From contig NC_015320.1 in the NCBI RefSeq assembly GCF_000194625.1, positions 1,100,612-1,164,611 on the forward strand: 64,000 nt of DNA, in the 5' to 3' direction. Below the pieces are notes generated by a model, which was not told the origin of the DNA, made no database searches, and saw only the letters and a list, made by a program, of their open reading frames with translations. Positions 7,238-45,952 of the stretch are shown one piece after another. Every line of letters begins with the position of its first letter. Positions within the stretch are counted from its first letter, which is position 1. The stretch is from Archaeoglobus veneficus SNP6 (lineage in GTDB: Archaea > Halobacteriota > Archaeoglobi > Archaeoglobales > Archaeoglobaceae). The position numbers were made by a program, and so were the translations under genes.

Positions 7238-8035
7238 ATGGAAGCCACAAAGGATGTTAGGGCAATTGAGGTCGAAAACGTCAGCTTCTCCTACAACGGC
7301 GTTAGAGCACTAACTGATATAACCTTCAGCGTTGACGAGGGTGAGTTTGTCGCAGTAATGGGACCCAACGGCTCTGGCAAAACGACGCTTCTCAGAATTC
7401 TCCTCGGCATGCTCAAACCTGAAAGCGGGAAAGTCAGAGTTTTCGGCTTTGATCCGTGCAGAGATGCGGAGAAAGTTCAATCCCTCGTTGGATTCATGCC
7501 TCAGAAGGAACACATATCCACAAAGCCACCGCTCCTCGTTAAGGACGTGGTGTTGATGGGGCGGGCAGCGAGAAAAGGCATTCTTTCCCCTCTATCCAAA
7601 GAAGATGTAGAAAAGGCCAGAGAGGCGTTAGAGGCAGTGGGGCTTGAAAAAGTCTGGGATACGAAGTTCAGCGAGTTAAGCGGTGGGCAGCAGCAGAGGG
7701 TTTTGCTTGCGAGAGCTCTCGCAGTCGAGCCAAAGCTCCTCCTACTTGACGAGCCATTCAACGGCGTTGACATTCCAAGTCAGAACAGGATTATAGAGCT
7801 GCTGGATAGACTTTCCAAGAAGGGCGTTACCGTGCTTGCAGTTGTCCACAACGTGAGCCCCCTGATACATCATATTGACAAGATTCTTCTCCTCAACAAA
7901 GAATTGATAGCGTATGGATCTCCTGGCGACGTCCTGATGCCTGAGAACATGATTAAAGCCTACGGAGCAATTATACCCATTATCGTATGTGAGGAGGGAT
8001 TCGCCCACCCACTCTTCGGTGATACCCATGGATGA
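7238..8035 (+). CDS. Metal ABC transporter ATP-binding protein
   Basis: A 265-residue ABC ATPase with Walker A GPNGSGKTT, the signature LSGGQQQRVLLARAL, Walker B LLLLDEP and the H-loop VVHNV. It energises the Zn/Mn importer with the adjacent binding protein and permease. The frame is open from 7187; ATGs at 7226 and 7238 are both plausible, and 7238 is chosen because AAGGAG lies at a normal distance from it. Confidence 0.88.
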   Translation: MEATKDVRAIEVENVSFSYNGVRALTDITFSVDEGEFVAVMGPNGSGKTTLLRILLGMLKPESGKVRVFGFDPCRDAEKVQSLVGFMPQKEHISTKPPLLVKDVVLMGRAARKGILSPLSKEDVEKAREALEAVGLEKVWDTKFSELSGGQQQRVLLARALAVEPKLLLLDEPFNGVDIPSQNRIIELLDRLSKKGVTVLAVVHNVSPLIHHIDKILLLNKELIAYGSPGDVLMPENMIKAYGAIIPIIVCEEGFAHPLFGDTHG

Positions 8036-8828
8036 CATTCCACTTTACATGCTCAGAGCCATCGCAGCTCTCTTTCTCATAGCGGTCAACGCGTCGGTAG
8101 CAGGCACGTTTACCGTATTCAGAAATGTTTCATTCCTCGTTGCTGGTGCAAGCCACGCTGCTTTGGCGGGAGCGGCCCTTGCAATCGTTCTCGAAACCTA
8201 CAACATATTCAGCATGAACCCCATAGTCGGCGGAATTCTCTTTGCCATGTTTACCGCAATCGCGGCAGGCTATGCATCGAAGGACGAGGGAATAAACACG
8301 GCGATAGGTATATCCTTCGCTCTCTCCATGAGCCTCGCGGTTCTGTTCATTTCCATGATAAGAGAGTACGCTGCAAGGGTGTGGGGGTTGCTGATCGGCG
8401 ATTTATTCCTCCTCACCAACGAAGACCTCGTTTTAATGCTGATTTCCACGCTGCTGGTAGTTTTCGTCTGCTCGCTGCTCTATCGTGAGTTTCTCTTTAT
8501 ATCCTTCGACATGGAAGGAGCAATGGCATACGGTATAAACGCCAGCATGCTGAACTACGTTCTGCTTTCCCTTATCGCTGTAGCAGTGGTGGTAACTCTT
8601 AAGGGCGTTGGGGCAATTCTTGTCTTTGCCATGTTTGTTGCCCCCGCTGCCGCTGCTGTGGAAGTTGCAGGAAACGTCAGGCAGGTTTTCATTCTCGCAT
8701 TCCTGATTGCAATGGTAAGTGGATTTGTCGGGCTTGCGATTTCCTTCTTCTACCAGGTATCCCCAGGAGCCGTAGCTTCGCTCTTCGCAAGCCTCACGTA
8801 CTTTGCTGCCGTCGCATATCGCAGGTAG
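8028..8828 (+). CDS. Metal ABC transporter permease (ZnuB/TroC type)
   Basis: A 266-residue protein with about eight or nine hydrophobic helices. It carries the ABC-3 family features: N-terminal MLRAIAALFL, a central GLLIGDLFLL segment, and a late GVGAILVFAMFVAPAAAA helix. It forms the membrane channel of the importer. The ATG at 8028 overlaps the ATPase gene by 8 bases, which closes the four-gene regulator-transporter operon. Confidence 0.87.
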   Translation: MDDIPLYMLRAIAALFLIAVNASVAGTFTVFRNVSFLVAGASHAALAGAALAIVLETYNIFSMNPIVGGILFAMFTAIAAGYASKDEGINTAIGISFALSMSLAVLFISMIREYAARVWGLLIGDLFLLTNEDLVLMLISTLLVVFVCSLLYREFLFISFDMEGAMAYGINASMLNYVLLSLIAVAVVVTLKGVGAILVFAMFVAPAAAAVEVAGNVRQVFILAFLIAMVSGFVGLAISFFYQVSPGAVASLFASLTYFAAVAYRR

Positions 8829-8905
8829 CCGGGCAGGAGACGAAGAAGGAGCAGTCCTGCATAAGGTTCGTAAGATTTTAGTATGATAAGTCAAGTGCGG
8901 GAAAC

Positions 8906-9403
8906 ATGATTCTCAAAGGCAGAGCGTGGAAGTTCGGCGACGATATATCAACAGACCATATTACACCAGGAAGGTACTACCACCTCAGGAGCAATTTGCC
9001 CGAACTGGCGAAGCACGTCATGGAAGACGCGAATCCCGACTTTGCGAAGCTCGTAAAGCCGGGAGATTTCATAGTTGCGGGAAAGAACTTTGGATGTGGT
9101 AGCAGCAGGGAGCATGCACCGAGAGTTATAAAGCTTGCAGGCGTTTCTGCCGTGCTTGCAAAATCCTTCGCCCGCATATTCTACAGGAATGCTATAAACA
9201 TTGGTCTTCCGCTGCTCATTGTCGATACCAACGGAATTGATGAAGGCGACCAGCTCGAAGTCAACCTTTCAACTGGTGAAGTTAAGAATCTAACAAAGGG
9301 GACGAGCATAAGCGCCAGACCTCTGCCCGATGTGATGATAAGGATACTGCAGGAGGGTGGGCTCGTAAACTACGTAAAGAAATACGGAGATGTGAGGGTT
9401 TAA
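8906..9403 (+). CDS. leuD: 3-isopropylmalate (or homologous) dehydratase small subunit
   Basis: The 165-residue swivel-domain subunit of a two-chain aconitase-superfamily hydro-lyase. Family motifs are DDISTDHITPGRY at 11-23, GKNFGCGSSREHAP around 58-71 and KSFARIFYRNAIN. It works with a LeuC-type large subunit not present here. The substrate loop reads YHLRSN; I recall that YLR(T/S)-like loops mark isopropylmalate isomerases and YLVY loops homoaconitases, so leucine synthesis is favoured, but this is from memory and the exact substrate is not certain. Confidence 0.85.
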   Translation: MILKGRAWKFGDDISTDHITPGRYYHLRSNLPELAKHVMEDANPDFAKLVKPGDFIVAGKNFGCGSSREHAPRVIKLAGVSAVLAKSFARIFYRNAINIGLPLLIVDTNGIDEGDQLEVNLSTGEVKNLTKGTSISARPLPDVMIRILQEGGLVNYVKKYGDVRV

Positions 9404-9499
9404 ATGCGGAAGTGTAAAGTCTGCGGAAACAAGGCGTACTTTGCAGAGGAGGGCGGAAGACTTAAGTGCCAGATTTGTGGCCAGTACCTCGAATATTAG
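9404..9499 (+). CDS. 31-residue zinc-ribbon mini-protein
   Basis: A tiny ORF begins with ATG directly after the leuD stop and encodes 31 residues with two knuckles, CKVCGN and CQICGQ, 18 residues apart, the spacing of a minimal zinc ribbon. Its last 38 bases overlap the 3' end of the convergent purE gene. Conserved cysteine spacing and the tight coupling to leuD argue that it is real, but no homologue is recalled and function is unknown. Confidence 0.55.
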   Translation: MRKCKVCGNKAYFAEEGGRLKCQICGQYLEY

Positions 9500-9944
9500 C
9501 ATCAGCTTCCTCGATTTCAAGCCTTTTTTGACGCTGATACTCGGCAACCATTTCCCTCAGTTCATGTCTTTTAATGGCAAGTATTTTCACGGCAGCAATG
9601 GCTGCATTTTCGGGTTCAAGCACAACAAGCGGTGCAACACCGGAAGGCATTCGGAGCGATGAAAGGATATCCATACCCGCAAACCTGTCGCTGTATGGTG
9701 GGCAGGCAATCACAGGACTGACAGTATTCGCATCTACGAAACCGCTTAAGGCGTTACTTCTCCCAGCCACTGTTATAAAAACGGCATCATCGTACTCTTT
9801 CAGTATTTCCAGCACCTTCTCTGGCGTTTTGTGAGCGGAAGCAATCCTGTAGCAGAACTCCACACCAAACTTCTCCAGCGTTTTGCCAATTCTCTTTGCG
9901 AATTCCATGTCCGATTTGGAGCCCATGAGAATAACGACATCCAT
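9462..9944 (-). CDS. purE: Phosphoribosylaminoimidazole carboxylase, class II PurE
   Basis: A 160-residue PurE-fold enzyme of purine synthesis. N-terminal GSKSDMEFA and SAHKTPE are the substrate phosphate and base sites; the central segment is AGRSNALSGFV, then CPPYSD and SSLRMPSGVAP. The AGRSN...SG and SSLR.PSG motifs match class II PurE (animal PAICS-like, direct AIR carboxylation with CO2) rather than class I, which has an AGGAAHLPGM segment at that place. Its 3' end overlaps the zinc-ribbon ORF. Confidence 0.85.
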   Translation of the reverse strand: MDVVILMGSKSDMEFAKRIGKTLEKFGVEFCYRIASAHKTPEKVLEILKEYDDAVFITVAGRSNALSGFVDANTVSPVIACPPYSDRFAGMDILSSLRMPSGVAPLVVLEPENAAIAAVKILAIKRHELREMVAEYQRQKRLEIEEADANIRGTGHKSGT

Positions 9945-9968
9945 GCCTCCACTGCTACGTGCGCCTTA

Positions 9969-9977
9969 AATTATTTA
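9969..9977 (+). promoter_or_regulatory. TATA box of the Sua5 gene
   Basis: ATTATTTAT is centred about 29 bases before the ATG at 10002, giving a likely leaderless transcript. This also supports that ATG rather than the upstream open frame from 9831. Confidence 0.5.
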
Positions 9978-10001
9978 TCGCCCCGTCGCAGCATACCAGC
10001 G

Positions 10002-10955
10002 ATGATCGTTATTAGAGTTGATCCAGTTAACCCCGAGAGGGGAAAAATCGCCAGAGCAGCGGAAATTATAAAGAAGGGTGGACTTGTCGCGTTTCCAACC
10101 GAGACTGTTTACGGGCTTGGTGGTGATGCGCTTAACGAGAATGCTGTACGAAGAATCTTCGAGGCAAAAGAAAGGCCGCCCCGCAACCCTCTGATAGTTC
10201 ACGTCTCAAGCGTTGAGCAGGTCTACCGGATTGCAGAAGTTAACGAAGTTGCCGAAAAGCTCATGGGAGAATTCTTTCCAGGCCCCCTCGCTCTCGTGCT
10301 TAAGAAGAAGGACGTCGTGCCAGACATAACAACCGCTGGAATGAAGAAGGTTGCAGTCAGAATGCCTGACCATAAGGTTGCACTGACACTCATCGAACTA
10401 TCGGAAACCCCAATTGCAGCCCCTTCTGCAAACATCTCCGGCAGACCGAGTCCTACAAAAGCTGAACACGTGATAGAGGATCTTGCCGGGAGGATAGATG
10501 CCATTCTGGATGCGGGAGAAGTAAAGATAGGTATAGAATCGACTGTTCTCGACGTGACATCAAAACCCGCGAAGATTCTGAGGCTTGGAGCAATAACACC
10601 GGAGATGCTTGTGGAGAGAGGTATAGAAGTGGAGGTCATAGACACGAGGCCATTCAGACACTATCAAACGAAGGCAAAACTCTACGTCGTTAATGCCGAA
10701 AATCTTGCAGAATTCGTTGGCAGCCTGAGGGAGAAAGGTGTAAAGGTTGGCGTTGCGCGTATTACTGCTGAATGCGACGCTGACAGAATCGTTGAACTTG
10801 GAAAGAGCATTGAGGACGTGGCAAAGAACCTCTTTTCAGCCCTTCGCGAACTCGACAGGAGTGGAGTTGATATAATCGTAGTTGAGGCGGTCGAAAGAAA
10901 GGGGTTGGGAAAGGTAATTATGAGCAAGCTCGAGGAAGCGGGAGAGATCGTCTGA
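10002..10955 (+). CDS. L-threonylcarbamoyladenylate synthase (Sua5)
   Basis: A 317-residue Sua5 protein that makes threonylcarbamoyl-AMP for t6A modification of tRNA. Residues 1-200 form the YrdC domain with FPTETVYGLGGDAL, the KxR site in RPPRNPLIVH, and SANISGRPSPT. A linker with GAITPEML leads to the C-terminal Sua5 Rossmann-like domain (about 225-317). The frame extends upstream to 9831, but homology begins at this ATG. Confidence 0.9.
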   Translation: MIVIRVDPVNPERGKIARAAEIIKKGGLVAFPTETVYGLGGDALNENAVRRIFEAKERPPRNPLIVHVSSVEQVYRIAEVNEVAEKLMGEFFPGPLALVLKKKDVVPDITTAGMKKVAVRMPDHKVALTLIELSETPIAAPSANISGRPSPTKAEHVIEDLAGRIDAILDAGEVKIGIESTVLDVTSKPAKILRLGAITPEMLVERGIEVEVIDTRPFRHYQTKAKLYVVNAENLAEFVGSLREKGVKVGVARITAECDADRIVELGKSIEDVAKNLFSALRELDRSGVDIIVVEAVERKGLGKVIMSKLEEAGEIV

Positions 10956-10963
10956 ACAAATTG

Positions 10964-11362
10964 CTACATTGCGTCGAAGTAGCTGACTTCAACGACGTCA
11001 GCCTCTGTGCTGTCGAGGATATCTGCGTTGTAAACGGTGACTATTCTCCCAACACTCCTCGGAGTAAGTCTGAGCCTCACGACAGTCATCTCGCTCTCCT
11101 CTATGTAGTGGTTAGAAGCGAAGATGATTGAGTGAGACATCACTTCCTTCCCGCTAACCTCCGCGATTATGCCCGTAGTTCCCCTGCCCACATTGTAAAG
11201 CTTCGATGGTGTCAGGAAGACGCAGCTTCCGATATCAGCCTTCAAAGCAGTGGCGACGTTATGGGCACTTCTAAGCTCGATCGCTCTTATATTCCTCTTT
11301 ACCAAATCTTCCAGCGTTTTTCTCGAAATTCCGGTAAGAACATAGCACCTCATTTCAATCAC
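10964..11362 (-). CDS. Archaeal conserved protein, DUF473-like
   Basis: A 132-residue soluble protein with alternating strands and helices and no membrane segment or catalytic motif that I recognise. Length and the opening YVLTGISRKTLEDL fit my memory of the archaeal DUF473 family, whose function is unknown. It overlaps the PAC2-family gene upstream by 4 bases and so is translationally coupled to it. Confidence 0.6.
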   Translation of the reverse strand: MIEMRCYVLTGISRKTLEDLVKRNIRAIELRSAHNVATALKADIGSCVFLTPSKLYNVGRGTTGIIAEVSGKEVMSHSIIFASNHYIEESEMTVVRLRLTPRSVGRIVTVYNADILDSTEADVVEVSYFDAM

Positions 11363-12084
11363 CCGAACATAGGCAGTTCTTCCTTCTTCGCAGCCTGCTC
11401 CTGCATCTTCGTCTGCTCAGCAAGCTTCTGCATCTGCGCTTCGATAATCTCTGCCTCTTTAATAAGCTTTTCAACGTTAACGTTCCAGCCGAACATGTTG
11501 TTCAGCACGTTTATAACCTCCGCTGCTGCTCTTGGATCGGGATTGAAGCCGAGGGTTTCACCAAGCAAAGCCATGCCCGGAAACTTCTTCGCGACACACT
11601 CGTTGAGGATCGAACCTGCGATTCCTGAGATAGTTCCGCTTCTGAATATCTCCACATAGTCTTTCAGCTCGTCAAGGAGCTCCTTCGACGTTGCTGCCCC
11701 AAAGACTCTGTGCTTGCCTTCAAGGGTTGCAATGCCTGCAATCGAGAATATCTTTGTGGCGTTAATACTCGCAGCCCAGTCAACTATTTTCCTGCTCATG
11801 TCGTATGCTATCTCAGGGATTATCGGGACATCGGAATGAATCAGGATGAAGTTGTGCTCTCTCGACTGGTAAATCCTTATTGGTGGCTGGATTACACCTT
11901 CCATTAGTGTTGCGATGGGCGGTAGCATCTCCGACTCAATCATCCCGATTTGCTCGGGCTTCAGTTCAGTTATGAAGTGCGCAGCAAGAATTGTTCCCAC
12001 GAGGCCTATACCTGGAAAACTCGTCAGTATTACTGGTTTATCTACATCCACACCTTCCACAAGAATTTCTGCTCCGTTTCGCAT
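11359..12084 (-). CDS. PAC2-family proteasome-assembly-chaperone-like protein
   Basis: A 241-residue PAC2-fold protein. Characteristic segments are SFPGIGLVGTILAAHFI at 23-39, PPIRIYQ, the strand-loop IHSDVPI, and an internal GEPL-like NPDPRAAAEVINVLN. The C-terminus is a Lys/Glu/Gln-rich helix. Relatives (PbaA/PbaB) are linked to archaeal proteasome assembly or ATP-independent chaperoning. A minus-strand TATA element at 12104-12113 lies about 25 bases upstream, so the mRNA is probably leaderless and covers the DUF473-like gene as well. Confidence 0.82.
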   Translation of the reverse strand: MRNGAEILVEGVDVDKPVILTSFPGIGLVGTILAAHFITELKPEQIGMIESEMLPPIATLMEGVIQPPIRIYQSREHNFILIHSDVPIIPEIAYDMSRKIVDWAASINATKIFSIAGIATLEGKHRVFGAATSKELLDELKDYVEIFRSGTISGIAGSILNECVAKKFPGMALLGETLGFNPDPRAAAEVINVLNNMFGWNVNVEKLIKEAEIIEAQMQKLAEQTKMQEQAAKKEELPMFG

Positions 12085-12103
12085 AGAATCTGTAAGGATA
12101 CAA

Positions 12104-12113
12104 TATTATTTAA
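12104..12113 (-). promoter_or_regulatory. TATA box of the PAC2-family gene
   Basis: On the minus strand the sequence reads TTAAATAATA, about 25 bases before the ATG at 12084, in the standard archaeal position for a leaderless start. Confidence 0.5.
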
Positions 12114-12184
12114 TCTCTTCCCATCGCTTATAGGCTGTATGCTTCACTGTTAATCATTACTACCTGACATGTGCCAAAAAGGTT

Positions 12185-12520
12185 ATGTACATTCTTACCA
12201 GCCCTACCTCGATGAGGCAGTATCCGTTCAAGCGCGGCTTCAAACCGACAGAGGAGAGGCTGGAAGAAGCTATAAAGAAACACTTTGGGGATTTCAAAAA
12301 GGAAGGAGACACATATATAGTCAGCTTCGGGGCCATAGAAGAGTTGAGGCTCAGAATTGAAAACAAGAAGCTCGTTGCTGAGTCGAAGACCAATCCGAAA
12401 GCACCGAACGACGTTGCGATGAACACGATTAAAACTTACAACAAATTTCTGGAAGAACTCACGGGCTACACAGCTAAAGAAAGGCAAAAGCTGTTAAAAA
12501 AGGAAATCGAGCGTGATTAA
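12185..12520 (+). CDS. Conserved archaeal small protein (possibly DUF5611)
   Basis: A 111-residue basic protein that opens MRQYPFKRGF after residue 9 and ends in a charged helix. The pattern of a short alpha/beta body (DTYIVSFGAIEELRLRI, KLVAESKT) followed by a long helix recalls the uncharacterised archaeal DUF5611 family, but this is a weak recollection. It overlaps the next gene by 8 bases (12513-12520). Function unknown. Confidence 0.55.
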   Translation: MYILTSPTSMRQYPFKRGFKPTEERLEEAIKKHFGDFKKEGDTYIVSFGAIEELRLRIENKKLVAESKTNPKAPNDVAMNTIKTYNKFLEELTGYTAKERQKLLKKEIERD

Positions 12521-12878
12521 ATGTATTCCTGTCTCACTGGATTTAAAGAAGGAAAAAGATGAGAGGTGCCTCAATTCAATGAATAGTCTGCTTATTAAAA
12601 GAGACTGTGGAATGGAAAAGTGCATGCTCGCAGCCAGGCTCGCGAACATGCTGGGAGATGTTGTGTGGGCTTCTTCCTCTTTTACACCCTATGTGCTGGA
12701 AGCAATGGGCGTGCATCCCCGGGCCGTGGTGGGAAAAAGGCGGGGAGAAGCTTCAAACGTCCTCAACCTGAATGAGCTGATTTCTAAAGAACTCGAAAAG
12801 GTTCTAATGAGTGCATTTTCAGGAGGTGACGAATGCCCTCCTTCATTCCTCCCTCCCACCCGAGATACGAATCTCTAA
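12513..12878 (+). CDS. Hypothetical protein upstream of phosphopantothenate synthetase
   Basis: A 121-residue ORF with a GTG start inside the end of the preceding gene; an internal ATG at 12612 is an alternative start. The body from residue 34 (MEKCMLAARLANMLGDVVW) looks like a compact alpha/beta domain. The last 46 bases overlap the next gene in another frame, and the Shine-Dalgarno of that gene lies inside this ORF. I do not recognise the family; coupling suggests a link to CoA synthesis. Confidence 0.45.
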   Translation: MIKCIPVSLDLKKEKDERCLNSMNSLLIKRDCGMEKCMLAARLANMLGDVVWASSSFTPYVLEAMGVHPRAVVGKRRGEASNVLNLNELISKELEKVLMSAFSGGDECPPSFLPPTRDTNL

Positions 12879-13606
12879 TGACAAGGGAAAAACTCGTTGA
12901 GGGCTTCAGGGCAGGAATAGTTGTCCCGGAGGGGTTGATAGCCCACGGGAGAGGAGAGGCCTTTGACTATATTCTCGGTGAGACGAGCAGAGATTTTGCC
13001 ATCGAAGCAGCGAAAGTTGCTGCTGCAATGATGCTGGCCGCAAGAAGGCCGGTGATTTCTGTAAACGGAAATGCTGCCGCTCTCGCAGCAGAAAAACTTG
13101 CAGAACTCTCCCGCGTTACCGGAGCACCGCTTGAAGTAAATCTATTTCACTGGAGCAGGGAAAGGGCAGACAGGATAAAGAAGTGGCTTGAACGATTTGA
13201 TTGTGAGGTTCTCGCAGAAGGCGACGCGGAAATAGAAGGTATTGAGCACTGCAGGAGGATCGTGGACAGCAGGGGCATACTCGTAGCGGATGTTGTGCTC
13301 GTGGCCCTCGAAGATGGTGATAGATGCGAGGTACTAAGAAGGGTCGGAAAGAAGGTTATAGCCATAGATCTCAATCCACTGTCGAGAACTGCCCAGATGG
13401 CCGACGTTACAGTGGTGGACAACGTAACGAGGGCAATTCCAAATATTGTTAAGTTTGCAAGAGAAATGAAAGAACTCAGCCGTGAGGAACTCGAAGAAAT
13501 CTTTAAGGGTTATGACAACGGAAAGATTCTAAAAAGGGCACTGGAAGCGATAAGAGAATATTTGACATCTAAATCTCTTGAAGCTTCCCGTTTTCAGCGA
13601 TCCTGA
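12833..13606 (+). CDS. 4-phosphopantoate--beta-alanine ligase (archaeal phosphopantothenate synthetase)
   Basis: The 257-residue archaeal enzyme of CoA biosynthesis that joins 4-phosphopantoate to beta-alanine with ATP, replacing bacterial PanC. Signature stretches are IPPSHPRYESL near the N-terminus, GLIAHGRGEAFDY, PVISVNGNAAAL, EVNLFHWS, VVLVALEDGDR and AIDLNPLSRTAQ. AGGAGGTGA at 12823-12831 is a textbook ribosome binding site for this ATG. Its partner pantoate kinase is not visible. The 3' end overlaps the convergent gene by 38 bases. Confidence 0.92.
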   Translation: MPSFIPPSHPRYESLMTREKLVEGFRAGIVVPEGLIAHGRGEAFDYILGETSRDFAIEAAKVAAAMMLAARRPVISVNGNAAALAAEKLAELSRVTGAPLEVNLFHWSRERADRIKKWLERFDCEVLAEGDAEIEGIEHCRRIVDSRGILVADVVLVALEDGDRCEVLRRVGKKVIAIDLNPLSRTAQMADVTVVDNVTRAIPNIVKFAREMKELSREELEEIFKGYDNGKILKRALEAIREYLTSKSLEASRFQRS

Positions 13607-38951: not shown

Positions 38952-40247
38952 TTACAGAGTTAAATGACTCCAAAATGCCGGTGTTTCCGGGTAGAGAATT
39001 TCCTTCACGGCATCTATGAACTCCCCGTATATGTGGGCATCGTTTGCGAAATGGTAGTACGTGCAGCCGGAAAAGTCTGTGAGTTCTGCAACATATTCTG
39101 TAAGAGTAGCGAAAGCAAACATGTTTGCGTGCATCGCTCCATAGATGTCGTTCGAGCGCATGTAGAAAATGCCTGCAAGCCGATTGCAGTCATTCTGGAT
39201 TTCACACACAAGCTGATAGCCGCGGAGACACGGAGGTTCATCGCTCGTCAAATCCCATGGCCTCGATATGCCCACGTAGCAATCCCGTCTGCATCTCTCC
39301 TCCCTAAGCTTTTCCATGCACATATAGAGCTGGTCAACCTTAACTTCGTCGTTCTCGCAATACCTCGCACGCTCTGCGTACGTGTAGACTTCGCCCTCCT
39401 TCAAAATCGGCTCGCTAACAGGTTTGTCAATACAATTCGCGTAAATGACATAGCTGTGAGCATACTCTACTCCATACTCTCTTGTAAATGGAGCCTTATC
39501 GTGAATCTGATTTTCTTCTGGCTTTCTCACCTCAACAAAGAGCCTGGGCACGAACCTGCTCGTCTGTTGTCCCTCAAAAACCTCTCCCCACTCAGTCTGC
39601 TTCTCCTTTCCGTGGTAAACCGCCTCGAGGGCAGAATGCCAGGCAGAAGAAATGTAATCTTCGACGAGGTGTGCTGCCTCATCCGTAACCCCAAAAATCT
39701 CCTCTGCTTTTCTCGCCTCACTTTCAGCCCTTTCAACATCCCTCTCGTAAATGTGGGGGCAGGAAATGAGCATGGCAATGCTCCCCTTTTCAAGGCCGGA
39801 TTTTTCAGATACTTCTTCGAGCATGTAGTTCAGAAAGTCGGAGTCGGGAGTAAAGTAGTTAAGTGCATCAAGGCTCCTCACGAAGGCCGTGACGTTGAGC
39901 CTGTCGTTGAAGTAGAGGAAGCTTACTTCCGTTATCGCAGGCGGAGTTTCGCAGAGATGGTCTTTGGGTAGCCATATGGGTATTGAAATCCTGCGGGTGT
40001 AGGGCTTTGCTCTCAGCCTCTCTGCTGCGACATCGAGTAAACCTTCGACCCTGTCGAAGTAGCTTTCACGGCATATCTGCCAGCAGGAGTAGTCGAGCTC
40101 CTCGACGTATTCCGGATTTTTAATAACTACGAGGGCTGGCCTGCATTGAATTGCGCGGCCATACCTTGATGGAAATGGCTTTCCTTCTTCAAGAATTTTG
40201 CCTATGAGCCTTCTCCTCGCATCTTCAACGCTGCTGGCGATGATCAT
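38952..40247 (-). CDS. Internally duplicated thymidylate-synthase-fold protein
   Basis: A 431-residue protein with two tandem halves of ThyA/dCMP-hydroxymethylase type. The C-terminal half keeps SRPWDLTSDEPPC (nucleophile Cys340), MRSNDIYGAMHAN (Arg364, Ser365, Asn375) and DAHIY (His405, Tyr407). The N-terminal half shows the matching PPA (Ala104 instead of Cys), VRSLD (Arg124, Ser125) and PHIY (His165); the Arg-to-His distance is 41 residues in both. Only the second half can be catalytic. It lies 49 bases upstream of the glutamate synthase operon. Substrate, and whether the folate is tetrahydromethanopterin, are unknown. Confidence 0.7.
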   Translation of the reverse strand: MIIASSVEDARRRLIGKILEEGKPFPSRYGRAIQCRPALVVIKNPEYVEELDYSCWQICRESYFDRVEGLLDVAAERLRAKPYTRRISIPIWLPKDHLCETPPAITEVSFLYFNDRLNVTAFVRSLDALNYFTPDSDFLNYMLEEVSEKSGLEKGSIAMLISCPHIYERDVERAESEARKAEEIFGVTDEAAHLVEDYISSAWHSALEAVYHGKEKQTEWGEVFEGQQTSRFVPRLFVEVRKPEENQIHDKAPFTREYGVEYAHSYVIYANCIDKPVSEPILKEGEVYTYAERARYCENDEVKVDQLYMCMEKLREERCRRDCYVGISRPWDLTSDEPPCLRGYQLVCEIQNDCNRLAGIFYMRSNDIYGAMHANMFAFATLTEYVAELTDFSGCTYYHFANDAHIYGEFIDAVKEILYPETPAFWSHLTL

Positions 40248-40356
40248 CTTCTCTGCTCAGGCAGAGTGTCGCGGGGTATTAAACGTTATTCACAGACACT
40301 ATTACTTAACTTCAGCACAGGCAAAAGGATATATCTCTCCGCTGAAAAGGGGGTTC

Positions 40357-41280
40357 GTGAAGTGCTCTCACTGCAACAGGCAGGCGGTATACTACCAGCG
40401 ACACTCAGGCAGACACCTCTGTAAAAAACACTTCATCTACGACTTCGAAAAGAGAGTTCGATACGCGGTAAAGAAGTACAGGATGATAGAGAGCGGTGAT
40501 AAAATAGCGATAGCTCTCAGCGGTGGGAAGGATAGTGTTGCTCTCACTTTTGCTCTCGACAGACTCTATGGGGAAAGAAAAGATGTTGAGTTCGTTGCAA
40601 TTACAATTGACGAGGGGATTAAAGGCTACCGCCCGCCCACCGTTGAGATTGCGAGAGAAATTACTTCCCAGCTTGGAATAGAGCATCACATCGTTTCCTT
40701 CAAAGAAAACTTCGGAATGGCTCTTGACGAGATGGTAAAGCTTGGAGACAAGAAGCCGTGCACGTACTGTGGAGTCTTCAGAAAATACCTGCTCAACAGA
40801 ACCGCAAGGGAGCTTGGGGCAACGAAGCTCGCCACCGCTCACAACCTCGACGATGAGACGCAGACAATTCTCCTCAACTTCCTGCAGGCTGACATAGAGA
40901 GACTTGCCAGGCTTGTTCCACAGCGAGTTCAGAAAGGGCTCGTAATGCGTATAAAGCCCTTCAGAGAAATTTACGAGAAGGAAGTCGTCGTATACTGTCT
41001 TCTCTTTGATCTTCCAATGGACATGAACGAGTGTCCCTACAGCTACTTCCCCGTTAGAGCAGCAATCAGAGACTTCCTCTACGACTTCGAGAACAAATAC
41101 CCGGGAAGAAAGTACTCCGTGATGAGGAGCTTCGAAACACTCATCCCGTGTCTGAAAGAAATGTTTCCGCAGATAGACCTAAACGCATGCGAAAAGTGCG
41201 GTGAACCGACGCCGAAACGCGTATGCCAGGCGTGTGTGCTCAGGGAGGAGCTCGAAAGGGCGAAGGAACAAATTCGCTAA
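40357..41280 (+). CDS. tRNA 2-thiolation protein, TtuA/Ncs6-TtcA family
   Basis: A 307-residue ATP-pyrophosphatase. An N-terminal zinc finger (CSHCNRQ, RHLCKKHF) precedes the PP-loop ALSGGKDSVALTFAL; the [4Fe-4S]/catalytic cysteines are in KPCTYCGVFRK and the later NECPY; AHNLDDETQTILLNF is the family signature; a C-terminal zinc finger has CEKCGEP and CQAC. It thiolates tRNA U54 or U34. The start is GTG with AAGGGGG 4 bases before; the open frame to 40198 is spurious. Confidence 0.9.
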   Translation: MKCSHCNRQAVYYQRHSGRHLCKKHFIYDFEKRVRYAVKKYRMIESGDKIAIALSGGKDSVALTFALDRLYGERKDVEFVAITIDEGIKGYRPPTVEIAREITSQLGIEHHIVSFKENFGMALDEMVKLGDKKPCTYCGVFRKYLLNRTARELGATKLATAHNLDDETQTILLNFLQADIERLARLVPQRVQKGLVMRIKPFREIYEKEVVVYCLLFDLPMDMNECPYSYFPVRAAIRDFLYDFENKYPGRKYSVMRSFETLIPCLKEMFPQIDLNACEKCGEPTPKRVCQACVLREELERAKEQIR

Positions 41281-41615: not shown

Positions 41616-42245
41616 ATGAGAAACATATTAGTTAGCCTTTTGCTGCTGGGATTTGCAGCGGCATTGGTGGGATCAGGAACACTGGCATACTTCAGCGACA
41701 CAGAAACAAGCGAGAATAATGTGTTCGGCGCGGGTATGATTGACATCTCTATAGATGATGAGAACCCATGGATTAGTAATTACACGATGGAAGACCTTAA
41801 ACCCTGTGAGACTGGGTGGATAAACTTCACAATTAAAAACCTCGAAAAAGACGATCCAGTCAAAATTTACAAGCATATAAACATAACAGGGTATGATGGT
41901 GGTCTGCATCCGGAGTCAGAGGAAGCTGAAGATCTCAACGACGAAATCAACGACATCGGTAAAAACATAACATACGACCTACATGTTGCGATCTACAACG
42001 AGACCGGTGCTCTTGTGCATGAAGAATGGATAATCGAAGAAACTGAAAATGTGAAAGTTGAAGACATAGACTGTTATTGGATTTACCTCGGCGATATACC
42101 CCAGAACGGAACCATGGTCGTTAACCAGAGCTATCACATGCAGCCTGAAGTAACCAACTGGGCTCAGGGAGACATAATGTACTTTGATATTGAAGTCCTC
42201 GCTACGCAGACGAACGCACCCGCTCCATCGCCATTGTGGCCTTAA
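41616..42245 (+). CDS. SipW-type secreted protein, TasA/camelysin-like 1
   Basis: A 209-residue secreted protein. The N-terminus is a SipW-cognate signal: hydrophobic core to residue 20 then SGTLAYFSDTETSENNVFGAG, the same layout as TasA and CalY of Bacillus and the archaeal bundling pilin AbpA. The mature part is acidic, predicted all-beta, with Asn-X-Ser/Thr sites (NYT, NFT, NIT, NET, NGT, NQS). It ends with a Pro-rich tail. It is probably a surface fibre subunit. Confidence 0.78.
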   Translation: MRNILVSLLLLGFAAALVGSGTLAYFSDTETSENNVFGAGMIDISIDDENPWISNYTMEDLKPCETGWINFTIKNLEKDDPVKIYKHINITGYDGGLHPESEEAEDLNDEINDIGKNITYDLHVAIYNETGALVHEEWIIEETENVKVEDIDCYWIYLGDIPQNGTMVVNQSYHMQPEVTNWAQGDIMYFDIEVLATQTNAPAPSPLWP

Positions 42246-42265
42246 TCTTTTGAGAAGTGCCGAAA

Positions 42266-42991
42266 ATGAGAAAAATAGCAGTACCATTGGCAGCAATTTC
42301 AGCAATAGCATTGCTTTTTACAGCAGGGACACTGGCATACTTCAGCGATCTTGAAACATCAACGAATAACACATTTTCAACAGGAACACTGGATATTTTC
42401 TTGACAGACGGTATTGTTTCGGCAACTTCAGCATGGGAGAAATATGACTGGAAACCCGGAGAGCCACTTGAGAGTGGCGAACTGAGAGTCTGGAACCTCG
42501 GTACCAACAAAGGTGACCATCTGGAATTCGACTTTGAGCTGACAGAGTATGAGGATGATAACGGAGACCTAACTGATGGTCAGAACAATGGTCCAGAATC
42601 AGACACAGCTAATACAACAGCCGATGGAATGGGCAGATATCTGTACATAGATTGCATGAGCATTACGTGGTTTGAAAACGATAACGAAACGGATGAACAC
42701 ATCTTGATTTCTGGCGGTAGTGCTACAGGCTCCGGTGTATGTGGAAACTTTACCTATGGGCTCTACGACGTCAACGGCAACGGTTACATGGACCTGGATG
42801 ACCTTGCAACCCTCGACCTCGATAACGTTGCTCCTCCAGAACTCGATACAAATGGAGCATATGATGCTATAGACAACTACCTGCAGATTAACATGAACGT
42901 GGGATTCAATGAAACTGCAGGAAATGATTATCAGGGCGACGTAACAATAATGAACGTAACCGTGACGCTGAACCAGGTTGCAAGCCAGTAA
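42266..42991 (+). CDS. SipW-type secreted protein, TasA/camelysin-like 2
   Basis: A 241-residue paralogue of the previous protein. The signal region AGTLAYFSDLETSTNNTF repeats the same motif. The mature chain is strongly acidic, with an EF-hand/dockerin-like loop DVNGNGYMDLDDL around residues 172-184 and several N-glycosylation sequons. Calcium binding is likely from the loop. The gene follows the first by 20 bases; an upstream GTG at 42257 is less likely. Confidence 0.78.
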   Translation: MRKIAVPLAAISAIALLFTAGTLAYFSDLETSTNNTFSTGTLDIFLTDGIVSATSAWEKYDWKPGEPLESGELRVWNLGTNKGDHLEFDFELTEYEDDNGDLTDGQNNGPESDTANTTADGMGRYLYIDCMSITWFENDNETDEHILISGGSATGSGVCGNFTYGLYDVNGNGYMDLDDLATLDLDNVAPPELDTNGAYDAIDNYLQINMNVGFNETAGNDYQGDVTIMNVTVTLNQVASQ

Positions 42992-43030
42992 ACAACCTTA
43001 ATTTTTTATTTTTTAAAGCAGGTGAAAGTC

Positions 43031-43510
43031 GTGGCTCAAGCAGCGAAAATAGTTCTGCTTTGTGTGGCTGTGTTTGTCACTCTATCTATAGCACTCGTCT
43101 TATCCCAGGCTCGGTTTCTGACAGTCACGGGAACAAGCATGGAGCCAGCAATAACTCAAAACGACATTGTACTTGTGTTGCCTGTTAATTCAGATGAAAT
43201 AAAAGCTGGAAAAGTGATAGTTTACAGGCATGAAGTTGATGGCAAAACGTATCAGTTCGTGCACAGGGTTGTAGAGGTAAACGGAAAATCGTTGTTGACG
43301 AAGGGCGATTCTCTGAGTACCGTTGATAATTATGTTGTAAGGTCTGATGACGTTGTCGGAGTGGTCGTGTTCAAGATACCGTATGCTGGATGGTTTGTGA
43401 GATTTATGAATACTGTTTGGGGTTACGTGCTGTTCATACTCATGCCGGGTACGGCTTTGATTATATTTGAAATTAGACAAATATGGAGGGAAATAAAATG
43501 CAAAAACTGA
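43031..43510 (+). CDS. Signal peptidase I, ER/SipW type, first copy
   Basis: A 159-residue membrane peptidase. An N-terminal helix is followed by TGTSMEPAI with the catalytic Ser and by FVHRVVEV with His in place of the bacterial Lys, the mark of ER/archaeal/SipW enzymes; GDSLSTVDNYVV supplies the conserved Asp; a second helix closes the chain. It probably cleaves the TasA-like precursors. AGGTGA (43020-43025) supports the GTG at 43031. Confidence 0.87.
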   Translation: MAQAAKIVLLCVAVFVTLSIALVLSQARFLTVTGTSMEPAITQNDIVLVLPVNSDEIKAGKVIVYRHEVDGKTYQFVHRVVEVNGKSLLTKGDSLSTVDNYVVRSDDVVGVVVFKIPYAGWFVRFMNTVWGYVLFILMPGTALIIFEIRQIWREIKCKN

Positions 43511-43974
43511 AAATTGCCTTAATTGTAGTCATAGCAATCGCTCTGTTGAAAGTTTATCCAACACACTCATACTTCAGTGATGTTGAAACATCAACCGGTG
43601 TTTTCAAAGCTGGTGTGTGGTGTAAATCTGAACATTTCCATGCGGATACATCTTGTGCAAAATTTAGCAACTGTTTTAGCAGCTGTTACATGCACGGCAT
43701 CTCTATCAAAAATAGTGGAGACGTGCCTATTGACGTTCGTGGAATTGAGTTGAGATATGCTGGAGGAAATGTCACAAAAATAACCATTGGAAACTGCACC
43801 TTCTGGAGCGGAAGCTCCTCAAGCAGTATTTTTAGTGGACTCTGCACGCTAATGCCGGGAGAAAGGAAAGGACTGAGGATAACTTTCGATTCAAACGTCA
43901 GCGTAACGGAAATTATATTTACCTTTGACGACAGCTCTTCCAAAGGATTTCAGATCAGTGCAAGCTCTTGCTGA
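43498..43974 (+). CDS. Third SipW-type secreted protein, cysteine-rich
   Basis: A 158-residue protein with a short signal and the motif HSYFSDVETSTGVFKAGVW, clearly cognate to the two larger paralogues but without their long acidic domain. The mature chain has about eight cysteines (for example DTSCAKFSNCFSSC and the C-terminal SASSC), suggesting disulfides. It could be a minor subunit, cap or initiator of the fibre. Its ribosome binding site GGAGGG lies in the end of the peptidase gene. Confidence 0.72.
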   Translation: MQKLKIALIVVIAIALLKVYPTHSYFSDVETSTGVFKAGVWCKSEHFHADTSCAKFSNCFSSCYMHGISIKNSGDVPIDVRGIELRYAGGNVTKITIGNCTFWSGSSSSSIFSGLCTLMPGERKGLRITFDSNVSVTEIIFTFDDSSSKGFQISASSC

Positions 43975-44000
43975 GTGCTTGCGGGGAGCTGATTAAAAGG

Positions 44001-44927
44001 ATGAAAAAGTTGGCTGTTGCCCTATTGATGGCTATACTTGCACTTGCTTTTCCGGTGGTGTCGGACATAGCTACTGGAAAGCTGACATCTCTGATTGTTC
44101 TTAGCGGAAGCATGCATCCTATTATGCAGGTGGGGGACGTGGTTGTTGTAAAACGCTGTAATCCAGAGTGCCTGGTAGCAGGAGACATAATTGCATTTAA
44201 GGATCCGTCTGACAGAGAGAATATCATAATAACTCACAGAGCAATAGAGGTTTTTACCGAGGATGGTAAATTAACCGGTTTCAGGACAAAAGGCGATGCA
44301 AACGAAGAGCCTGACGAGTTTGTGGTTGATAGGGAGGACATTATTGGAAAAGCAGTCTTTATAGTTCCGCTTGTCGGATACCTGTTTGAAGCCTACCATT
44401 CCAAAAATTTCCTTGCCTACTTTACTCTGATCATACTGCCAGCGTTTATGCTTACAGTAGGCGAGATGAGAAAAATCTTCTCTTATAACCTGCAAACTGA
44501 AAGGAAGACTGAAAAAGAAGGAATAAGGAAGAAGCGAAAGTACACAGTCATCAGAAAGAGAAGGTTCTTCGCGATATACATTTCATTGACAGCAGCGCTT
44601 CTGCTTGCATTATACCCGATTACAGCGGTGGAAGGATCAGAAGTGTGTAACCACGGATTTCTACCATGCCTAATAATATGCGATGACATACCCGGCTACA
44701 CTGTCGTTCAACCGGGTGAAACGGTGAGGGTAAGTGGAATTGTGGATGCTGTTCAGTATGTGGTTCCAGTTTTCTGGGCCGTCAGGCTTTCCGAGCTGAA
44801 TTTTAGTTTACCTTTGGCTTTTACAGCCATATTCAGCTCGATTCTAACTTTTTCCATGTATCCACTATGGATACAGAATTTACCCGAACTTAGGAGAAAG
44901 AGAAGGAGAATTTTTGGAAGGAGATGA
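44001..44927 (+). CDS. Signal peptidase I, ER type, second copy with C-terminal membrane extension
   Basis: A 308-residue protein. Residues 1-165 are a second ER-type signal peptidase: LSGSMHPIMQVGDVVVVK (catalytic Ser), ITHRAIEV (His), GDANEEPDEFVV (Asp). A basic linker RKTEKEGIRKKRKY leads to an extra region with two more helices and a Cys-containing loop (CNHGFLPCLIIC). The extension may hold the enzyme near the fibre assembly site. Confidence 0.83.
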   Translation: MKKLAVALLMAILALAFPVVSDIATGKLTSLIVLSGSMHPIMQVGDVVVVKRCNPECLVAGDIIAFKDPSDRENIIITHRAIEVFTEDGKLTGFRTKGDANEEPDEFVVDREDIIGKAVFIVPLVGYLFEAYHSKNFLAYFTLIILPAFMLTVGEMRKIFSYNLQTERKTEKEGIRKKRKYTVIRKRRFFAIYISLTAALLLALYPITAVEGSEVCNHGFLPCLIICDDIPGYTVVQPGETVRVSGIVDAVQYVVPVFWAVRLSELNFSLPLAFTAIFSSILTFSMYPLWIQNLPELRRKRRRIFGRR

Positions 44928-44932
44928 GGTAA

Positions 44933-45952
44933 ATGAAGTACACAAAATATAGGATTATGTGTGAGATAAAAAAGAGGTTCTGGATCCTGACAGTGGTTCT
45001 GCTTGTTTCTTCTTTGCTACTCTCCGGCTACTGGTATTATTCATCCAGCAAGCCGAGATATGTTGAAGAGAAAGTTGAAGTACCGTTTTACACTGTTAAG
45101 GGTGGCTATACTGGCTCAGCTCTGGTATTGAAGGAAAATCCAGTATGGGAAGTAGAAGACAGACTCAGCGGACTTCCTGTTTATCTGTTGGGAATCTCCC
45201 CAATCATGGACGTGAACTTCAGCTTTAAAATTTCAAATCCGAATGCAAACGTTTCAATTAAGAGTGTTACAAAAGTTATCTACAGCTCCAGTTACAACGA
45301 GAAGTTGCTCTGGAAGAAAACTTATATGGAATTCACAAATGAGACCACAGGGAATTCTCTCGAAAGTACTTTTTCGATAAATATAACCGATCTCAGGAAA
45401 ACGATTAACGATGTACAGAAAGCTCTTGGTTTTCATCAGGGTACAACTGAAGTAAAAATCGTGACTTGTGTGAATTACTCCGGGTTCGTTAACGGAGAGA
45501 AAGTCGAGGAAGTCAAAACCTACGTGATGCCGCTGGATGTTGGAGGAGATACATACAAATTTGAGAATGTCTATAACACTGATAGTAAAAAGAGAACAGA
45601 AAATAGAATCGTTGAGGTTGAACCACCACTAATCGATAAGATGGCCCCAGTATTTGTGATGACAGCACTTCTCTCCACGCTGGTGACGTTTTCCGCTGTA
45701 AAAATTAGATTCGACCCGAATAACCACGATCTCAGAAAACTAAAGATTGAAGAAGAAAAGAGCAAACTCGAAAAGTGGATAAGTGAGGGAAAGCTTGTGA
45801 ATAACCCCGGTCTGATAAGAGTGGAAATGGATTCACTAAAGGGTCTTGTAGACGCGGCCATAGATACAAATGAAAGAGTAATTTATGACTCGGAGGTATC
45901 AGAATACTTTTTCATACACGGTGACGTGATATACATCTTCAGAGAGACGTAA
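44933..45952 (+). CDS. DUF5305-like membrane protein of the TasA-like operon
   Basis: A 339-residue protein. A helix at about 16-36 precedes a predicted beta-rich exterior domain (about 40-235) with sequons, a second helix near 240-262, and a cytoplasmic tail with WISEGKL, SLKGLVDAAIDTNERVIYD. This pattern matches the DUF5305 family often found with archaeal SipW-type peptidases. It is the last gene of the operon and may anchor or polymerise the fibre. Confidence 0.72.
   Translation: MKYTKYRIMCEIKKRFWILTVVLLVSSLLLSGYWYYSSSKPRYVEEKVEVPFYTVKGGYTGSALVLKENPVWEVEDRLSGLPVYLLGISPIMDVNFSFKISNPNANVSIKSVTKVIYSSSYNEKLLWKKTYMEFTNETTGNSLESTFSINITDLRKTINDVQKALGFHQGTTEVKIVTCVNYSGFVNGEKVEEVKTYVMPLDVGGDTYKFENVYNTDSKKRTENRIVEVEPPLIDKMAPVFVMTALLSTLVTFSAVKIRFDPNNHDLRKLKIEEEKSKLEKWISEGKLVNNPGLIRVEMDSLKGLVDAAIDTNERVIYDSEVSEYFFIHGDVIYIFRET

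Follow-up and report, generated by a model that had tools for sequence, protein, structure and literature searches.

A stretch of 64,000 nucleotides from Archaeoglobus veneficus SNP6 (bases 1,100,612–1,164,611 of a genome that forms one contig of 1,901,943 bases; hereafter the window) contains, at 41616–45952, six + strand genes whose open reading frames (ORFs) overlap or are separated by short spacers. Three encode secreted proteins, here named Cal1–Cal3, two encode signal peptidases, SP1 (SPshort) and SP2 (SPlong), and the last encodes a DUF5305 protein, giving the order Cal Cal SPshort Cal3 SPlong DUF5305. An earlier interpretation made from the letters alone (the sequence-only reading) had described six such genes, and all of the ORFs are present on the + strand where it placed them. 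The features, with lengths in amino acids (aa), are as follows.

41616..42245, + strand: Cal1, acidic TasA/camelysin-family secreted subunit, 209 aa (PF12389, TIGR04088)
42257..42991, + strand: Cal2, TasA/camelysin-family secreted subunit, 244 aa, with an EF-hand-like loop (PF12389, TIGR04088, hhalign)
42997..43018, + strand: U6AU6 tract between Cal2 and SP1, candidate archaeal transcription terminator/attenuator
43022..43510, + strand: SP1, short Sec11/SipW-type signal peptidase, 162 aa (TIGR02228, SP1 clade)
43483..43974, + strand: Cal3, short Cys-rich protein with a SipW-type signal and a donor-strand-like N-terminus (TIGR04088)
43968..44927, + strand: SP2, Sec11-type signal peptidase with a C-terminal extension predicted as transmembrane segment, ectodomain and transmembrane segment (TIGR02228, hydropathy)
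44933..45952, + strand: DUF5305 protein, with a transmembrane segment, beta-rich ectodomain, second transmembrane segment and conserved C-terminal tail (PF17231, AlphaFold2)

Ribosome-binding sites or homology indicate that three starts are probably better placed at ATG 42266 (Cal2), ATG 43498 (Cal3) and ATG 44001 (SP2). All three secreted proteins exceed the curated cut-off of 19 bits for the SipW-type signal TIGR04088 (Cal1, 42.3 bits, 5.6e-11; Cal2, 34.6 bits, 1.5e-8; Cal3, 24.4 bits, 2.3e-5). The signal motif that the sequence-only reading took to be common to the three is found in Cal1 and Cal2; Cal3 has THSYFSDVETSTG, which lacks the 'LA' and the trailing N.

Cal1, Cal2 and Cal3

Cal1 and Cal2 both score above the curated cut-off of 22.5 bits for PF12389 (Peptidase_M73): Cal1 at 42.5 bits (8.5e-11) over residues 14–200 and Cal2 at 33.6 bits (4.4e-8), with its N-terminal half covered. 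Profile comparison with hhalign aligns Cal2 with the Cal1 family across its length (99.4%, 2e-21). The mature Cal1 chain is predicted to start at Y25 (YFSDTETSENN), and both mature chains are acidic (isoelectric point 4.05 in each), with seven sequons in Cal1 and six in Cal2.

Searches of the PDB with Cal1, Cal2 and Cal3 as single sequences gave no relevant match, and profiles were therefore needed. A nine-sequence Cal1 profile placed TasA (8aur, 5of1) first, at 8e-4. A larger profile, built on 19 relatives of Cal1 and Cal2 in several archaeal families, matched TasA over the whole domain at 3.7e-12 (8aur) and 3.9e-12 (5of1); the next match was AbpX ('archaeal bundling protein X'), at 0.012–0.018, and AbpA (7UEG) was not matched up to E 5.

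The donor strand of TasA comprises residues 28–38 (F29, I32, F39) and is inserted into the neighbouring subunit, whose sheet it completes (PMC9674648). At this interface between TasA subunits lie the residues best conserved among camelysins, including a proline box (PMC10151520). The TasA landmarks F29, D31, F39, the KPG proline box and the C-terminal strand are largely conserved in the Cal1/Cal2 family, which has in common with TasA the KPG box and an N..QG(D/N)...F...Q terminal strand. By eye, TasA AFNDIKSKDATFASGTLDL aligns with YFSDTETSENNVFGAGMIDI in Cal1 and YFSDLETSTNNTFSTGTLDI in Cal2. The donor segment is among the best-conserved parts of the mature Cal1 chain, with a mean pairwise identity within the Cal1 family of 56% vs 27% for the rest. 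On this sequence evidence, Cal1 and Cal2 are members of the TasA family along their whole length.

Cal2 also carries an EF-hand-like loop, DVNGNGYMDLDD, at residues 171–182. The 12-residue pattern of the loop recurs in Cal2 of both Archaeoglobus relatives and of three methanogen-like loci; in the Ferroglobus-like and Geoglobus-like loci it is carried by Cal1, and in the latter also by an extra Cal-type protein. Shuffled Cal2 sequences show it in about 2% of cases. The loop scores 14.1 bits against the Pfam EF-hand models PF00036 and PF13405, below their cut-offs of 25.4 and 25.0. Binding of Ca2+ by this loop is plausible; the calcium regulation suggested in the sequence-only reading does not yet follow from it.

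Cal3 is a different protein. Its mature chain has seven Cys, and its PF12389 score (11.4 bits, E 0.28) is below the cut-off and confined to the signal region. The window Cal3 and the methanogen-like family have in common the C-terminal pattern F[FW]SG...FDS.VS...D[DG]S.K, and the Cal3 gene lies directly upstream of SP2/SPlong in each of the 12 loci where Cal3 is recognised. Cal3 was rejected as a TasA homologue, as only the signal and the first ~45 aa align with the Cal1 family in hhalign. Homology to TapA by sequence was also rejected: the TIGR04087 score is 13.6 bits, against a cut-off of 80 bits, and a Cal3-family profile found no TapA structure. The proposal of three fibre subunits is thus supported for Cal1 and Cal2, and for Cal3 is reduced to the signal and a donor-strand segment. 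Cal3 may serve as a base or nucleator, like TapA.

Signal peptidases, DUF5305 and conservation of the locus

Against the archaeal/endoplasmic reticulum (ER)-type signal peptidase model TIGR02228 (cut-off 51.85 bits), SP1 scores 81.1 bits (7.7e-23) and SP2 97.2 bits (8.4e-28). Both have the invariant SM.P and HR motifs and keep the Ser-His catalytic columns, and human SEC11C is matched by their joint profile at 1e-21. SP2 goes beyond a plain signal peptidase, since hydropathy indicates that residues ~200–300 add a transmembrane segment, an ectodomain and a further transmembrane segment. The earlier description of the locus as a fibre operon of the TasA/camelysin type, with SipW-type signals and two dedicated peptidases of the ER (Sec11) type, is supported.

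In a tree of 65 peptidases, SPshort of the two-peptidase operons forms one clade of 11 (support 96/97), outside which SPshort of the halophile loci falls; SPlong does not come out as a single resolved clade. The conserved gene order and the supported SPshort clade indicate that the two-peptidase design is old and not a local duplication.

The sequence-only reading had proposed a search for the same gene order in other Archaeoglobales; it was found there and in other archaea as well. Camelysin-family genes are present in six of 57 Archaeoglobales genomes, and PF12389 in 51 of the 390 Halobacteriota genomes of good quality. Seventeen DUF5305-linked Cal loci were compared, 12 of which have a recognised Cal3. 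The core order of the operon is the same in five Archaeoglobales loci. Two Archaeoglobus-type genomes have four Cal genes in an arrangement otherwise as in the window, and two further loci have a single Cal ahead of SPshort. The identical six-gene order is found in two methanogen-like genomes (L118 and L120; genus g63, with large genomes, in another family), where the second subunit again has the EF-hand-like loop. SPshort is absent from the Ferroglobus-like and Geoglobus-like loci and three others. Another methanogen-like locus, L123, seems to have a degraded Cal2 (9400–10120), as the interval from Cal1 to SP1 holds no open frame; its relatives carry Cal2 intact. In the Archaeoglobus relatives (L045, 2826–6338; L044, 2090–5601), DUF5305 is followed by a large gene for a secreted protease, subtilisin-like by eye, which appears split into two ORFs in L044.

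The DUF5305 protein scores 204 bits (2e-60) against PF17231, whose cut-off is 29. Its AlphaFold2 model (predicted local distance difference test, pLDDT, 80.5) has two transmembrane helices with a beta-rich ectodomain (42–229) between them, followed by a small C-terminal tail, which is predicted to be cytosolic and is the best-conserved part of the protein. Fold searching gave nothing beyond weak, partial matches to C5a peptidase domains (4.7e-4, 115 columns, TM-score 0.21), which are not taken as homology. A Sec11-type peptidase lies within 2 kb of DUF5305 in 36 of 40 loci surveyed, and the other partners of DUF5305 are DUF1102 proteins, which are weakly Taf-fimbria-like, and AbpX-like proteins. 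AbpX-like secreted proteins (match 2e-10, AYPG motif) are encoded in two other Archaeoglobales (L048, 6929–10052; L051, 4079–5467), adjoining a DUF5305-type gene and an SPlong that has additional hydrophobic stretches at its N-terminus. These gene neighbourhoods suggest that DUF5305 and SPlong are a common part of archaeal fibre loci, and give DUF5305 a first functional context. No mention of DUF5305 was found in the literature searched, nor any joint mention of camelysin and Methanosarcina, such absences being no proof of novelty; for Archaeoglobus, biofilm and TasA together, only a general review was found.

A second DUF5305 locus is present in the same genome at ~1,266,000 (L043, G000:C1:1258000-1274000, 7956–13177). 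Three secreted proteins of the DUF1102 family, each bearing a GADFxxYxA-type motif, are encoded there together with a long Sec11-type peptidase whose ectodomain is flanked by membrane segments, a secreted Cys-rich protein, DUF5305 and a regulator-like protein of 152 aa. Loci of this type are widespread in Archaeoglobales and halophiles. Relatives of its DUF1102 proteins match NCBIfam Taf fimbrial models well below the curated cut-offs. A search of the genome for TafA gave no match anywhere, and the controls likewise gave none.

The U6AU6 tract ahead of SP1 is the only one in the window, where 0.01 would be expected. Folding of an RNA hairpin ahead of it was no better than for shuffled sequence in the window, L118 or L120. 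In several lineages, hairpin-like and/or oligo-T tracts follow directly on the major subunit genes and precede the first gene for a peptidase (window, 42997–43018; L123, ~10120–10160; L115, ~10300–10330; L118 and L120, ahead of SP1), as if attenuation gave more subunit than enzyme. Upstream of the operon, an ORF at 40198–41280 encodes a TtuA-like PP-loop enzyme; its listed TTG start is probably ~50 codons too early, because the LIM/zinc domain begins at residue 55.

Proposed fibre assembly and known systems

Donor-strand fibres are formed by Bacillus TasA and by the related archaeal bundling pili, such as Pyrobaculum AbpA (PMC9674648, PMC10151520). The operon likely makes a surface fibre of this TasA/AbpA type, built from Cal1 and Cal2 by donor-strand exchange, with Cal3 as starter or base and with anchoring by SP2 and DUF5305. 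The homology, landmark residues, operon conservation and SP1 phylogeny on which this is based were obtained here; we infer polymerisation, the pairing of peptidases with substrates, the roles of Cal3 and DUF5305, and calcium binding. Cal1 and Cal2 would be exported via Sec and cut by SP1 just ahead of YFSD, freeing an N-terminal strand for insertion into the next subunit; Ca2+ bound by the EF-like loop would stabilise Cal2. Cal3, which retains only the donor segment, joined to another kind of small domain, and whose gene lies next to SP2, would be a TapA-like starter or base. It would be matured by SP2 and held at the membrane by SP2 together with DUF5305, whose beta-rich ectodomain could serve as anchor and assembly platform. 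Because the same six genes recur in distant archaea, they probably constitute conserved machinery with which fibres are built at the cell surface.

Several observations weigh against this account. With camelysin genes in only the six of 57 Archaeoglobales genomes, the system is dispensable. The AlphaFold2 model of the mature Cal2 chain, made with an alignment of sequences from the window and related loci, is of low confidence (pLDDT 48; predicted template modelling score, pTM, 0.52), and its top Foldseek match in the PDB, TasA 5of2, is not significant (E 0.067). Beyond the signal/donor segment, families, profiles and hhalign detect no relation of Cal3 to TasA or TapA. The Ferroglobus- and Geoglobus-like loci have no SP1, and strict pairing of peptidase and substrate is therefore not required. 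No filament of this kind from these organisms was found in the literature consulted, and electron cryomicroscopy of appendages from A. veneficus has yielded a cytochrome filament (PMC12954529).

The same genes could be read in other ways. It is unlikely, although the least so of the alternatives, that the operon combines two systems, a fibre of Cal1/Cal2 with SP1, and an independent membrane adhesin or sensor of Cal3, SP2 and DUF5305. Cal genes with a short peptidase and no DUF5305 do occur in halophiles and others, Cal3, SP2 and DUF5305 occur without SP1 in five loci, and the conserved, predicted cytosolic tail of DUF5305 would suit signalling; but Cal1/Cal2-type genes accompany the recognised Cal3 in all 12 of its loci, and the Cal3 N-terminus is the same donor-strand segment. 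The Pfam family name, 'Camelysin metallo-endopeptidase', would rather make Cal1 and Cal2 metallopeptidases of the camelysin type, or else monomeric surface proteins of another sort, which the peptidases only secrete. Neither sequence, read directly, has the HExxH zinc motif, however; among solved structures the nearest relatives are TasA, which forms fibres, and, weakly, AbpX, and the conserved residues are those of the donor strand and proline box, known from the subunit interface, so that we regard this as improbable. A role of the three proteins in a surface layer (S-layer) or other envelope coat, with SP2 and DUF5305 as coat-assembly factors, is more improbable still. The many sequons, the acidic composition and the membrane-anchored, beta-rich DUF5305 would fit such a coat, but an S-layer would not be limited to so few Archaeoglobales, the sequence relation points to TasA fibres, and no S-layer family was matched in Pfam/NCBIfam scans.

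A more general scheme can be put forward tentatively, as one that may well prove wrong. The long Sec11-type peptidase and DUF5305 would form a general archaeal platform that builds and anchors donor-strand fibres of at least three subunit families (TasA/camelysin, AbpX-like and DUF1102/Taf-like). In the version encoded in the window, the platform would use a dedicated starter, Cal3, matured by a peptidase of its own, and a main subunit stabilised by calcium. Such a platform would correspond, in archaea, to chaperone-usher or TapA-type assembly. For the nucleation, processing and anchoring of archaeal donor-strand fibres, the conserved six-gene set provides candidates: two peptidases whose partners differ, a starter subunit and DUF5305.

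The operon is not a new kind of system, because archaeal TasA homologues have already been published; the earlier suggestion that such a fibre is undescribed for this lineage is likewise not supported. What appears to be new is the presence of two Sec11-type peptidases and DUF5305 in a TasA-type fibre operon. The tapA-sipW-tasA operon of Bacillus subtilis and sipW-calY of B. cereus likewise encode TasA-family subunits with a SipW-type signal and a dedicated Sec11-type peptidase, adjoined by a minor subunit. The window operon differs from these in having two different peptidases in place of one, DUF5305 and an EF-like loop in one subunit, and in that no TapA homologue was detected. Likeness to the archaeal bundling pili (AbpA, AbpX; Pyrobaculum calidifontis AbpA, PDB 7UEG) consists of the weak AbpX profile match (0.012), AbpA being unmatched, and the AbpX-like proteins of L048 and L051 are a separate family with the AYPG motif. 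Weak matches to Taf fimbriae (NCBIfam TafA/TafC/TafE/TafF) are a feature of the second DUF5305 locus, in this genome and in haloarchaea, and not of the window operon, from which that locus differs in its DUF1102 subunit family and signal motif. Camelysin genes of other Halobacteriota usually adjoin a short Sec11-type peptidase in the loci examined; unlike the window operon, the halophile loci among these have no SP2 or DUF5305 alongside.

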